Source: Salinicoccus halitifaciens
GTDB lineage: Bacteria > Bacillota > Bacilli > Staphylococcales > Salinicoccaceae
Assembly: GCF_021026095.1 (NCBI RefSeq)
Contig: NZ_JAJNCU010000001.1
Coordinates: forward strand, 806,001-870,000
Reading direction: 5' to 3'
DNA: 64,000 bases
Positions 3,669 through 49,627 of this stretch are shown here, piece by piece; the first letter of the stretch is position 1; every line of letters starts with the position of its first letter. A model generated the notes under the pieces. The model was not told the origin of the DNA. It was given only the letters and a program-made list of their open reading frames with translations, and ran no database searches. The translations under genes were made by a program, and so were the position numbers.

Positions 3669-5363
3669 TCACTTTTCGTCATAATCGTTTTCAATCTTCC
3701 GGGCGGCGCCGGGTTCCACTTTTTCAAGCGCACCTTTGATGATTTCAAGGGCACGTTTGTATCTGCTCTCCTTGAACATCCGCTCGGACTCGCGTATCTG
3801 CGCATCGAATGCATGATCGTCCCTGCGGTATCTGTTACCGTATTGTATCATGATTTCGGTGAGTTCCGCATCTCTGAGCAACTCATAGGCTTCCTGCTCG
3901 AACTCGTTCAAATCCATCACCGTCTGATTCACTTTATCCTTGATGTACTGGACATTCAACGGACGTTTGCTGAAATAGTCCTCGATCTTACGATGATTGA
4001 TATCCAGCTCGTTTTTGATGATGATGAACCGTTCCGGGACTTCAGGCAGGTTTGAAGTCACAAGTTTGCGGTAAACCTTCTCTTTTTTGTCATGGATATA
4101 AATTGTGTTCTCTTTTGCCTCTTCGGCATCTTCCCTTAAGTTAATGAGATGTTCCTGGATTTTCTCCTGCTCGTCATTGATCTGCAGAATCTGATCCTTG
4201 ATATGTGAAATTCTGTTTTCAACTTCGCTGAACCTTGCGTTCGTCTTCGATGTCTCCGTCACGATCTCATCATATACATCCACAAGGCTTTCAATCTCAT
4301 GTTCGAATTTCTGCACTGAATGGATGTCAGCATCATTGATATAAAACTGATCCTTCAAATACTCGATCTCTGTTCTGAGCGTGTAGTTCGAAGTCCTTGC
4401 ATGGAACAGCTCATCGGTGATGAGCGGCTGATCCTGATCGACTTTGATCTTCGCCTTCACTTCAACTTCGATCAGCTCGAGTATATCGTCGACCTGTGTG
4501 TTGATGTCATCCAGTATTTTACGCGCCTCATCCAGATCCAGCCTTGAAATCAAAGGCTCGACAAGATTCAGCTTGCCTTTCAGCGTGGATAGTTTGCCTT
4601 CGACCTTGATGTGGTCGAGGTCGTACCCTTCCGCCTTCAGATCACGGCAGCCGAACCGGATCTCCTGGAATTGTGCCGGCAGGTCTTTTTGGACTTCCCT
4701 GATCAAAACAGGGATATCATCCATATTCTCCTTCAGTGTCCGGAGATCGCTGCGCACATCTTCAATATGACGCCCCGCACTGACGTAGTTGCCGTCGTTG
4801 ATCATGACATCATATTCCTTGATTTCAGGTTCAAAGCTGTCGATCAGCTCTTCAAGCGGCCCGCTGGCGTCGCCGAACTGATACGCACTGGCAAGAACAT
4901 CACGCTTTGCCTCCCTGTGCAGTTTTTCAGCTTCCGCCCTTGCGATCGCTGATTTTTCACTCATCTGAACCAGTTCATCGATTTCCGATGTCAACTGGTC
5001 ATATTTGGACTCGACCCGGGCAATCCCGGTTTCGCCCTGTTTCACTTTCTCATCACTGGCACCGAATTTGAATTTTTCAAGATCTTTCTTTGCTTCCGAA
5101 AGCCTGCCTTCAGAGGTATCAAGTGAATCTTTGAGTGAAGCCTGCCATTCTTTCTGCCACCCGGTGTACAGCTTTTTAGCCTCACCGTGAAGGTTCAAAT
5201 CTTTAACTTTGAATAATTCATCCTGGAAAGGAAGTGCTTTGACATCTTCCAATTTATTGAACTTATTATTGATATCTTCCAGTTTAGTGTTTCTTATGTA
5301 AAAAACGACAGCAACTGAAATTGCTATTAGTACAATGATCCCGATAAGTAGATAGACCCACAT
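3669..5363 (-). CDS. ezrA: Septation ring formation regulator EzrA
   Basis: Membrane-anchored cytoplasmic protein that controls FtsZ ring assembly and links division to cell-wall synthesis in Firmicutes. One N-terminal transmembrane helix (residues about 3-22) is followed by some 540 residues of charged alpha-helix with repeated coiled-coil segments, the spectrin-like EzrA architecture. Length 564 aa, equal to staphylococcal EzrA. The frame extends to 5390, but the ATG at 5363 is directly behind GTAGGAGGT and gives the expected MWVYLLIGI start. It stands alone between the divergent ytsP-like gene and nifZ-thiI. Confidence 0.95.
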   Translation of the reverse strand: MWVYLLIGIIVLIAISVAVVFYIRNTKLEDINNKFNKLEDVKALPFQDELFKVKDLNLHGEAKKLYTGWQKEWQASLKDSLDTSEGRLSEAKKDLEKFKFGASDEKVKQGETGIARVESKYDQLTSEIDELVQMSEKSAIARAEAEKLHREAKRDVLASAYQFGDASGPLEELIDSFEPEIKEYDVMINDGNYVSAGRHIEDVRSDLRTLKENMDDIPVLIREVQKDLPAQFQEIRFGCRDLKAEGYDLDHIKVEGKLSTLKGKLNLVEPLISRLDLDEARKILDDINTQVDDILELIEVEVKAKIKVDQDQPLITDELFHARTSNYTLRTEIEYLKDQFYINDADIHSVQKFEHEIESLVDVYDEIVTETSKTNARFSEVENRISHIKDQILQINDEQEKIQEHLINLREDAEEAKENTIYIHDKKEKVYRKLVTSNLPEVPERFIIIKNELDINHRKIEDYFSKRPLNVQYIKDKVNQTVMDLNEFEQEAYELLRDAELTEIMIQYGNRYRRDDHAFDAQIRESERMFKESRYKRALEIIKGALEKVEPGAARKIENDYDEK

Positions 5364-47002: not shown

Positions 47003-48256
47003 ATGTATGACGTAATTGTGGTTGGCGGCGGTGTGAGCGGCCTGATGGCAGCCTATTCCGCCTCCAAAAATGGCAAAAAAGTAATCCTCATCGAAAAAAA
47101 TAAAAAACTCGGGCAGAAGCTGCTCATCTCGGGCGGCGGCCGCTGCAATGTCACAAACCGCCTGCCCTACGCCGAGATCATCAGTCATATCCCCGGCAAC
47201 GGCAAATTCCTGTACGGTCCCTTCAGCATCTTCGATAATGAAAACATCATCGACTTTGTCGAGTCCCGCGGTGTGGCACTGAAAGAGGAAGACCACGGCC
47301 GCATGTTCCCCGTCAGCAACAAGGCCGTCGATGTACTGAATGTCTTCCTCCGGGAACTGGAGGAAAATAATGTGACCATACGCTACAATACAATCGTTGA
47401 GGAAGTGACTTCCAAAGACGGCAGAATCACCGGCGTCACCTTGACGGACGGCGAAGTCATCAAAGCCCAGAACGTCATCATCACCACCGGCGGACGGAGT
47501 GTGCCGAACACCGGATCCACCGGCGACGGCCATAAATTCGCACGAACGGCCGGGCACACCATCACTGAACTCTTCCCGACGGAAGTGCCCATCACCTCTT
47601 CCGAGGACTTCATCAGGGCGGGCACCTTAAAAGGCCTGAGCCTCTCCAACATCGCTTTGTCCGTGCTCCGGAAGAACGGCAAACCGCGCATCACCCATCA
47701 GATGGATATGATATTCACGCACTTCGGCATCTCCGGTCCCGCCGCCCTCAGATGCAGCCAGTTCGTGTATAAGGAGCAGAAGAGCCAGAAGCGCACCGAC
47801 ATCAGCATGATGATCGACTTTTATCCCGATACGGGGAAAGGCGCACTCCAGGAGGAACTCGACGCCCTGATCAAGGAAAGCCCCAATAAATCCATCAGGA
47901 ATATACTGAAGACCATGATGCAGGACCGGCTCGCCGAATTTCTGATCGACTATAACGGCATCGACCGTGAAGCGAACAGCCACCATCTGAAAAATGAAGA
48001 TAAGCAGAAGATTGTGGACTTCCTGAAAGGCTTCACCTTCAAAGTCGACGGCACCCAGTCCATAGAAAAGGCATTCGTCACCGGAGGCGGCGTCAATTTA
48101 AAAGAAATCACGCCCCAGACGATGGAAAGCCGCCTCGTCGAAGGACTTTATTTTGCCGGCGAAGTCCTCGACATCCACGGCTACACCGGCGGCTATAATA
48201 TAACGAGCGCGCTCGTCACGGGTTATGTCGCGGGCCACAGCGCCGGGATGAAGTAA
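47003..48256 (+). CDS. ytfP: HI0933/YtfP family flavoprotein, NAD(P)/FAD-dependent oxidoreductase
   Basis: 417 aa, soluble. FAD Rossmann motif VVGGGVSGLMAAYSA (residues 6-20), second signature GQKLLISGGGRCNVTN, GRMFPVSNKAVDV, and the C-terminal FAVTGGGV-like FVTGGGVNLKEI and FAGEVLDIHGYTGGYN. The family is widespread; the physiological substrate is unknown. AAAGGAG precedes the ATG. Followed by the 52-bp repeat region. Confidence 0.92.
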   Translation: MYDVIVVGGGVSGLMAAYSASKNGKKVILIEKNKKLGQKLLISGGGRCNVTNRLPYAEIISHIPGNGKFLYGPFSIFDNENIIDFVESRGVALKEEDHGRMFPVSNKAVDVLNVFLRELEENNVTIRYNTIVEEVTSKDGRITGVTLTDGEVIKAQNVIITTGGRSVPNTGSTGDGHKFARTAGHTITELFPTEVPITSSEDFIRAGTLKGLSLSNIALSVLRKNGKPRITHQMDMIFTHFGISGPAALRCSQFVYKEQKSQKRTDISMMIDFYPDTGKGALQEELDALIKESPNKSIRNILKTMMQDRLAEFLIDYNGIDREANSHHLKNEDKQKIVDFLKGFTFKVDGTQSIEKAFVTGGGVNLKEITPQTMESRLVEGLYFAGEVLDIHGYTGGYNITSALVTGYVAGHSAGMK

Positions 48257-48282
48257 GGGTGCAGCTGATTGTTGATGACGTC

Positions 48283-48550
48283 CGTAACCTTCAGTCGAAA
48301 ATTGCGGTAATGTTGCGAAATCGGGCACTGAATTCGTAACCTTCACGGGAAAGCAAGGTCCACCTTACGAAACCAGACATGGAATCCGCAACCTTTGAAT
48401 GAAAACCCAGTCAACGTTGCGAAATCAGGCACAGAAAACGTAACCTTCGCCTTCAAACCCGGCTAACGTTGCGAAACCGGACCCAAAATCCGCAACCTGC
48501 TCATAAGAAGGCCATCAGTGGTGCGAATTCCAAACTCAAAACGCACCTTC
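48283..48550. repeat. Degenerate tandem repeat, exact 52-bp period, five and a fraction units
   Basis: Units start at 48283, 48335, 48387, 48439 and 48491, with a partial sixth at 48542. All five align without gaps. Column 1-9 is CGYAACCTT, column 27-38 is AACGTTGCGAAA (copies of GTTGCGAAA at 48312, 48364, 48416, 48468, 48520), and other columns are moderately conserved. The two blocks are near reverse complements (CGCAACCTT against AACGTTGCG). 52 is not a multiple of three and no start or ribosome-binding site fits, so it is read as non-coding. This fills most of the 345-bp gap 48257-48601. Confidence 0.88.
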
Positions 48551-48564
48551 TTCACCACAACGCC

Positions 48565-48598
48565 AAAACCCCGCAGTTCACTAGAACTGCGGGGTCTC
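48565..48598. terminator. Terminator between repeat array and isdG
   Basis: CCCCGCAGTT CACTAG AACTGCGGGG; T-run on the minus strand (GGGGTTTT) ends isdG. Confidence 0.88.
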
Positions 48599-48601
48599 TT
48601 C

Positions 48602-48925
48602 TTATTCCGGCAGGTGCCGGTAGGCGATGTCATAAATTCGTATTTCATTATCTATGATCGGGTTGTCTGCAGGTTTATCCCCGGACGGTCTTGAACCGTG
48701 GGCTTTTTGGTTCTTCCTGCTGTCCCTCCATGCCTCAAAGGATGCATGGTCTTTCCAAGTCGTCGCGACCAGCAGCTCATCATGATCTTCAAGCTTTTCA
48801 TTCTTCAGCACTTCCATCAGCTCAAAACCTTCAAAAGTATGGACGGCCTTCGGTTCCTGGAATCTTACCGCAACCTCATCGATCCGGCCCTTTTTAATGC
48901 TCAGCGCATTCACCACTTTAATCAT
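48602..48925 (-). CDS. isdG: Heme-degrading monooxygenase, IsdG family
   Basis: 107 aa, exactly the size of S. aureus IsdG. ABM ferredoxin-like fold; the catalytic triad of the family is visible as Asn6 (VVNALS), the Trp in TTWKDHASF and the His in NQKAHG; the C-terminal PIIDNEIRIYDIAY resembles IsdG closely. It frees iron from heme. No heme-uptake genes are adjacent. A weak Fur-like sequence lies at 48953-48967. GGATGAG precedes the ATG. Confidence 0.88.
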   Translation of the reverse strand: MIKVVNALSIKKGRIDEVAVRFQEPKAVHTFEGFELMEVLKNEKLEDHDELLVATTWKDHASFEAWRDSRKNQKAHGSRPSGDKPADNPIIDNEIRIYDIAYRHLPE

Positions 48926-48952
48926 TCATTCTCATCCTTTCATGATATACCT

Positions 48953-48967
48953 ACATAAACAATATCA
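48953..48967. promoter_or_regulatory. Weak Fur-box-like sequence before isdG
   Basis: Minus strand TGATATTGTTTATGT matches the 7-1-7 Fur core at about 10-11 of 14 specified bases and overlaps the likely promoter region. Confidence 0.25.
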
Positions 48968-49093
48968 TATTTCCACCGGCACTCCGTATAGGAAAGGTTA
49001 CAAAAAAGCGACGGCGAAAAGTTTGAACATGGCAATATAAAGGAATTGGCTTTAAAGTACAGTTTCCACAATAAAAACCAAAGGAGCGTACAT

Positions 49094-49627
49094 ATGTCAT
49101 TGGAAGATATGTTTTTAGGTGATTTTGAAACCATTATACGCACGCTGGTCGTCGGTCTGCTCGCCTATATCGCCCTGGTCGTCATCGTGAGAGTCAGCGG
49201 CAAGCGTACATTATCCCAGCTGAACGCCTTCGACTTCATCGTGACGGTGGCCCTCGGCTCGATACTCGCGACCATCATCCTCGACAGCAGCGTGTCGCTG
49301 CTTCAGGGCGTCACCGCCTACCTTGTGCTCGTCCTGATGCAGTATTTGATCACGAGGTTCACACTGGCGAGTAATACATTCGATGACCTGGTGAAATCCG
49401 AACCGAGGCTGCTCTTTTATAAGGATCAGTACCTTGAGGGAAATCTGAAGAAAGAACGGCTGAACAAATCCGAAATCCATCAGGCGGTGCGGTCAAGCGG
49501 CACCGCCAACCTTGAAAAGGTTGAAGCGGTCATCCTGGAGAGTGACGGGAGCATCTCCGTCATCCCAAAAAGTGACGGGCCTTCAAAAAATGATGAAAAT
49601 GACATCATGCAACATGTAAAAAAGTGA
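49094..49627 (+). CDS. DUF421 membrane protein (YetF family)
   Basis: 177 aa. Three N-terminal membrane helices (about 10-32, 38-58, 62-85) and a cytoplasmic domain with the family signature SGKRTLSQLNAFDFIVTVALGS and SEPRLLFYKDQYLEG. Function unknown; DUF421 proteins occur in spore-former and coccal membranes. The frame opens at 49046 but ATG 49094 follows AAAGGAG. Single gene, convergent with leuS over a shared terminator. Confidence 0.88.
   Translation: MSLEDMFLGDFETIIRTLVVGLLAYIALVVIVRVSGKRTLSQLNAFDFIVTVALGSILATIILDSSVSLLQGVTAYLVLVLMQYLITRFTLASNTFDDLVKSEPRLLFYKDQYLEGNLKKERLNKSEIHQAVRSSGTANLEKVEAVILESDGSISVIPKSDGPSKNDENDIMQHVKK

Follow-up and report, generated by a model that had tools for sequence, protein, structure and literature searches.

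What is a regular array of degenerate 52-bp repeats between two unrelated genes, and what holds its period while its sequence drifts? The array in question lies in Salinicoccus halitifaciens, a close relative of Salinicoccus kekensis, within a stretch of 64,000 nucleotides that was analyzed as a whole and is called the window below. Two genes point their 3′ ends at it, and a predicted terminator stands between the array and one of them. The features of the locus are as follows, in window positions.

47003-48256, plus strand: HI0933-like FAD-binding protein gene, 3′ end toward the array (PF03486, E 1.2e-93)
48268-48550, minus strand: 52-bp array, five units in register and a partial half-site at 48540-48550
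48268-48319, 48320-48371, 48372-48423, 48424-48475 and 48476-48527, minus strand: array units 1-5
48280-48291, minus strand: right half-site of unit 1, AAGGTTRCGAAA-type; the plus strand reads CGTAACCTT
48308-48319, minus strand: left half-site of unit 1, TTCGCAACRTTG-type
48332-48343, minus strand: right half-site of unit 2
48360-48371, minus strand: left half-site of unit 2, TTCGTAAGGTGG variant
48384-48395, minus strand: right half-site of unit 3
48412-48423, minus strand: left half-site of unit 3
48436-48447, minus strand: right half-site of unit 4
48464-48475, minus strand: left half-site of unit 4
48488-48499, minus strand: right half-site of unit 5, degenerate end unit
48516-48527, minus strand: left half-site of unit 5, degenerate end unit
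48568-48595, no strand assigned: predicted intrinsic terminator on the ABM-gene side of the array, 12-bp inverted repeat, loop of 4, T-rich tail
48602-48925, minus strand: ABM-domain (IsdG-like) monooxygenase gene, 3′ end toward the array (PF03992, E 5.4e-13)

A 52-bp tandem repeat had been predicted at these coordinates, and it is there: TRF gives a period of 52, a repeat finder returns four 35-nt copies at spacings of 52/52/52, and the lag-match peak of 0.683 in 48200-48600 is reached by none of 500 dinucleotide shuffles (mean 0.413, maximum 0.481). Two recurring blocks had been proposed within it, each with variants allowed for. Four of the six CGYAACCTT copies are exact (48283, 48335, 48387, 48439) and the other two are such variants, CGCAACCTG at 48491 and CGCACCTT at 48542; the latter begins 51 and not 52 bp after its predecessor, one base short as the original prediction had it. 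The second block, GTTGCGAAA, is exact in three of five copies (48312, 48416, 48468) and varies in the remaining two (48364, CTTACGAAA; 48520, GGTGCGAAT). At the orthologous place S. kekensis also carries five units (L025, L135), Lacicoccus alkaliphilus carries one and three further relatives carry none.

The two blocks were thought to be near reverse complements, and they prove to be inverted versions of one half-site. Read on the minus strand of the window, a unit consists of the left half-site TTCGCAA[C/G]RTTG, a 16-bp linker, the right half-site AAGGTTRCGAAA and a 12-bp linker. Single half-sites are mostly not palindromic: the perfect 8-bp palindrome CAACGTTG occurs in 46 of 165 left cores, and a palindrome of 8 bp, counting perfect ones only, in 1 of 165 right cores.

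The array in the window is one member of a dispersed, lineage-specific intergenic family. An initial DNA search of its own genome with the window array as query returned 16 loci that we read, ten of them with a 52-bp period and six being short chance matches without it. In the 2.68-Mb genome of S. halitifaciens the family comprises at least 15 arrays with 96 units of 52 bp among the matches listed, and in S. kekensis DSM 23173 at least 14 arrays with 75 units, again among the matches listed; unit 1 of L138 is a false unit retained in these counts. A profile search of the kind called for at the outset was carried out with a sequence model, R1, built from 25 chosen units, with at most 150 candidates scored per genome, so that arrays may be missing. 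At E <= 1 it gives at least 110 matches in S. halitifaciens and at least 99 in S. kekensis, six weak matches in L. alkaliphilus DSM 16010, one match (E 0.4) in genome G005, and none in genomes G003 (80% complete) and G004. Three of the six genomes of the genus (G003, G004, G005) thus have no clear array, and the family is dispensable across the genus. Among 33 genomes of the taxonomic family, matches at E <= 0.01 occur in S. halitifaciens, S. kekensis and L. alkaliphilus only, leaving 30 without one.

Fourteen of the 15 S. halitifaciens arrays pair with the 14 S. kekensis arrays compared, at orthologous places and in segments that are 88-94% identical; the exception, L154, has no partner among those 14. 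Unit numbers differ between partners (12 in S. halitifaciens against 4 in S. kekensis, 11 against 4, or 7 against 1, for example). All six L. alkaliphilus matches, at five loci, fall at places orthologous to S. halitifaciens arrays and are remnants of half to one and a half units each. Four loci retain the left and the right half-site, at a distance of 28 bp in three cases and 27 bp in the other, with a third half-site 24 bp further on at one of the four; at the fifth locus a single half-site is left.

The spacing within the arrays is close to exact. Steps from unit to unit measure precisely 52 bp in 78 of 81 cases in S. halitifaciens and in 61 of 61 in S. kekensis. A pattern that allowed 12-18 bases between cores gave the maximum, 18, in all 23 matches in S. 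halitifaciens and in 11 of 12 in S. kekensis, the remaining one having 17. In a joint scan for single half-sites, using matrices derived from the same units that were later measured and dropping distances of 5, 11, 13 and 23 (mostly overlap artefacts), start-to-start distances alternate between 28 and 24 bp and are exact in 314 of 325 intervals (164 left-to-right of 28, 150 right-to-left of 24). The 11 off-pattern intervals are three skips of 52 bp in which one half-site has been lost and eight one-base changes. All eight lie among the outer three intervals of an array, a class that makes up 166 of the 325 intervals (chance of all eight falling there ~0.005).

Linkers, by comparison, have a fixed length and a free sequence. 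Between the consensus units of the 15 S. halitifaciens loci, cores are 83% identical and linkers 43%. In 29 reciprocal-best units of S. halitifaciens and S. kekensis, cores differ by 8.9% and linkers by 23.3%; the flanking non-coding spacers, at 7.1%, differ no more than the cores do, and the linker value probably includes comparisons of non-orthologous units. Minimum spanning trees require 283 substitutions in cores and 851 in linkers, which gives a per-site core/linker rate of 0.39, or 0.37 when interior units only are taken. The flanking spacers, with 20 indels per 328 substitutions, provide a yardstick for the prediction that the period is held while the sequence drifts, and the prediction stands up against it. 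Their ratio would yield ~52 indels for all units. For interior units, 492 linker substitutions predict 30 indels and one is seen (L162; P(<=1) 3e-12); with substitutions halved and the lower bound of the ratio, 9.2 interior indels are still predicted (P(<=1) ~0.001). Within L152 and L136 the linkers are 42-43% identical and every step is still 52 bp. Since indels are so much rarer than the flanks predict and such diverged linkers keep their step, the spacing is likely to be under constraint. The family offers unusually clean evidence, with half-site sequence and spacing kept and linker sequence not.

Could turnover achieve the same? Arrays might purge indels without selection as interior units are replaced, and we take this as the main alternative to spacing constraint because end units are also more degenerate (mean score 39.2 for 52 terminal units vs 48.7 for 114 interior ones). 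In its full form, this explanation makes the family a neutral or selfish minisatellite of single origin, spread by some route and homogenized by slippage or unequal exchange, with exact spacing a by-product of young interior units. It would account for the degenerate ends, for the one-base changes that cluster near them, for the wide variation in unit number between orthologous arrays and for the absence of the family from most genomes searched. We nevertheless consider it improbable, if worth serious attention, on four counts: the interior units have accumulated some 492 linker substitutions with a single indel where 30 were expected; in L152 and L136 the linkers have diverged widely inside the array and each step still measures 52 bp; the substitution rate of cores is 0.37-0.39 that of linkers; and tandem exchange can hardly homogenize the L. 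alkaliphilus remnants, in which both half-sites persist at four of five loci, with the 28-bp distance in three of those four.

Genomic position bears on what a constrained array might do. Copies had been expected to sit between genes, and at the arrays examined they do. A terminator is predicted 7-31 bp before the start of the array at 7 of 15 loci (a raw count from a home-made predictor). Among the 13 loci with an assignable gene orientation, which leaves out L149 and L157, the flanking genes are convergent at seven, co-directional at five and divergent at one; for comparison, 5 of 29 spacers of at least 60 bp in the window are convergent by a rough gene call. Given the five co-directional loci and the divergent one, no single role in transcription fits all. 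Nor do the neighbors share a pathway, the flanking genes coming from unrelated families (purD, ddl, tatC, serS and others). As to possible clustering near the terminus or the origin, the 918-kb contig with what we take to be a dif-like site (G000:C1:637162-637189, one mismatch to a Firmicutes pattern) carries 2 of 15 arrays (P 0.07), and one array lies ~14 kb from dnaA.

Since the arrays lie between unrelated genes, in many cases just beyond a terminator and in many cases flanked by converging 3′ ends, action at the level of DNA is most likely. We favor, with moderate confidence, a phase-locked array of putative protein-binding half-sites, similar in design to the bacterial interspersed mosaic elements (BIMEs) discussed below. 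A putative DNA-binding protein that recognizes the half-sites by their sequence would occupy them and form a regular lattice along the array. Equivalent sites would recur every ~5 helical turns (52/10.4 = 5.0) and so lie on the same face of the DNA; an indel of one base would break the lattice and be purged, except near the ends of an array, and unequal exchange or slippage would make arrays grow and shrink by whole units. Both the binding and its biological effect we infer: the bound array may serve as a topological or chromosome-organizing anchor, or as an insulator between transcription units, by analogy with what has been suggested for BIMEs. Two 52-bp units would make a defined bait for seeking the protein, in a genus that is not known to be pathogenic, and if a protein lattice were found, the family would represent a new kind of bacterial chromosome-organizing element.

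A parallel comes from Jeotgalicoccus. The intergenic spacer after the FAD gene is also occupied in Jeotgalicoccus coquinae and J. marinus, there by 41-bp arrays whose sequence is different. Those of J. coquinae form a separate dispersed family with seven loci (L166-L173, L194, L195), in which the half-sites TTGASTGACA and TGTCASTCAA alternate at 25/16 bp in 60 of 63 neighbor steps, the other three being exact 41-bp skips with one half-site lost. A second genome of the same genus group, G014, has two arrays of the J. coquinae type at orthologous places. J. marinus also holds a further 41-bp family of other sequence (L178-L180), with CCCTATCC and GAATRGTGATG blocks whose inverted nature was judged by eye. 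These families suggest that the design of a phased array arose or diverged more than once. The Jeotgalicoccus pitch corresponds to 41/10.4 = 3.9 helical turns, and the closeness of both periods to whole turns is suggestive only. More tentatively, and with distinctly less confidence than we place in the protein-bound array itself, we propose that the Salinicoccus/Lacicoccus and Jeotgalicoccus arrays might belong to one general class of phase-locked DNA scaffolds, with lineage-specific half-sites and a pitch near whole helical turns (five for 52 bp, four for 41 bp), each read by a fast-evolving polymerizing protein that would anchor or insulate chromosome segments.

In three units of one of the G014 arrays (L192:1587-1950), both half-sites have changed in a coordinated way (TGTCCGACAA / TCGGACA) and their complementarity is kept. 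Such a change may mean that this family depends on pairing or on a shared reader. For the lattice reading it counts as adverse evidence, since a hairpin model would predict it too.

Does the 52-bp family belong to a class already named? The original prediction knew of none that fits, and for the sequence this holds. As regards sequence, a search of 47900-49200 against Rfam gave nothing near threshold (top match 22.7 bits against a gathering score of 55), the exact family pattern matched no viral contig, and the L157 array, used as query instead of the window array, matched no plasmid or phage record. As regards architecture, the family resembles BIMEs, and its dynamics resemble those of STAR. 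BIMEs and the REPs that compose them are described from enterobacteria, Xanthomonas and others as units outside genes, evenly spaced and alternating in orientation; binding by gyrase, IHF and Pol I is reported, and a role in chromosome organization and transcription termination is suggested (PMC2817692). The same account gives REPs as imperfect palindromes with usually more than 100 copies in a genome and a kinship to RAYT transposases (PMC2817692). The 52-bp family is likewise extragenic and its half-sites alternate as regularly; it departs from REPs in that its half-sites are inverted only as pairs, and from BIMEs in that its spacing is exact nearly to the base. A further difference is that PF01797, the Y1 transposase domain, was not found in S. 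halitifaciens, in a search whose control was positive in 5 of 14 genomes.

That last result weighs on a second rival, in which the arrays are tandem derivatives of a non-autonomous mobile palindromic element of the REP/BIME type and the half-sites are recognition sites of a transposase or nuclease. Alternating, regular inverted sites at extragenic positions match BIMEs as described (PMC2817692), the family is dispersed over 15 loci, and the presence of lineage-specific half-sites in different lineages recalls species-specific REPs. We judge such a mobile origin quite unlikely all the same: PF01797, for which the S. halitifaciens genome gave no match, is the RAYT domain, the 14 of 15 positions common to both species speak of little recent movement, and neither viral contigs (one pattern as query) nor plasmids and phages (one array as query) hold a copy.

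STAR elements of Staphylococcus aureus, a related Gram-positive coccus, are portrayed as intergenic direct repeats at dozens of loci, with variable unit number and locus-specific linkers (PMC3532100), features that the 52-bp family shares in being intergenic, variable in unit number and specific to the locus in its linkers. At the gapR locus the STAR unit is given as a GC-rich 14-bp motif, T(G/A/T)TGTTG(G/T)GGCCC(C/A), plus a spacer of 40-44 bp; the same source reports zero loci common to two species and gives the function as unknown (PMC3532100). By inspection, this core motif does not appear in the consensus or column frequencies of the 52-bp family, which, unlike STAR, has two inverted half-sites and 14 of 15 loci common to two species. 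The STAR pitch (14 plus 40-44 bp) would not fit the whole-turn pattern either. False-CRISPR or STAR-like tandem elements, classified as such in PMC5294841, consist of repeats and linkers without companion cas genes; the 52-bp family has the same repeat-and-linker build with linkers that are not diverse, whereas phased inverted half-sites do not feature in that description of them (PMC5294841). The family is thus distinct both from S. aureus STAR and from a REP/BIME accompanied by RAYT, and we file it under neither; by analogy, it would work most like BIMEs. For repeats of this intergenic kind in Gram-positive cocci, STAR among them, work of 2012 and 2017 gave no known function (PMC3532100; PMC5294841).

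A transcribed RNA element, either a hairpin array in 3′ untranslated regions or a fail-safe terminator, would draw on the capacity of adjacent inverted half-sites to pair, on the position of the window array between the stop codon of the FAD gene and the terminator at 48568, where it may be transcribed, and on the coordinated change in L192 that preserves complementarity. Alternative RNA hairpins had indeed been anticipated, and the folding results do not bear them out. The 260-nt window array folds no better than its shuffles (z -0.28 on the plus strand, -1.29 on the minus strand), and in 29 units, one per array, pairing within units does not exceed that of re-dealt halves on either strand, leaving left and right halves without covariation. 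Position pair 8:32 is a G-G mismatch in 59 of 165 distinct units. Moreover, the array starts after a predicted terminator at 7 of 15 loci, and a hairpin should accommodate a loop one base longer or shorter. We regard this explanation as very improbable.

Three further candidates can be set aside briefly: a decayed gene is very unlikely, as the family is dispersed and its period is not a multiple of 3, which puts neighboring units in different frames; conversion between inverted halves (quasi-palindrome correction) is unlikely because left position 8 is G in 36% of units and its partner, position 32, in 98%; and a CRISPR array is rejected, as linkers recur between units in most arrays and the repeats vary.

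Other repeats were seen along the way. In S. halitifaciens outside the window (G000:C1, L021:1940-2059), two tandem 53-bp copies of an unrelated unit lie by a terminator-like hairpin, and in Salinicoccus sp. YB14-2 (L028, ~4786-4860) a stretch with a 16/17-bp period lies near a run of N beyond the same FAD gene.

Finally, the single copy in inverse sense that had been noted near 48992 is present: it reads AAAGGTTAC (48990-49005) and lies upstream of a membrane-protein-like gene. The aligned sequence is AAAGGTTACG in S. kekensis and AAAGGTTG in L. alkaliphilus, and the three relatives that lack an array here have a similar AAAAGTTAC. Because a similar site occurs in these array-free relatives, the single site is probably separate from the array and older than it.
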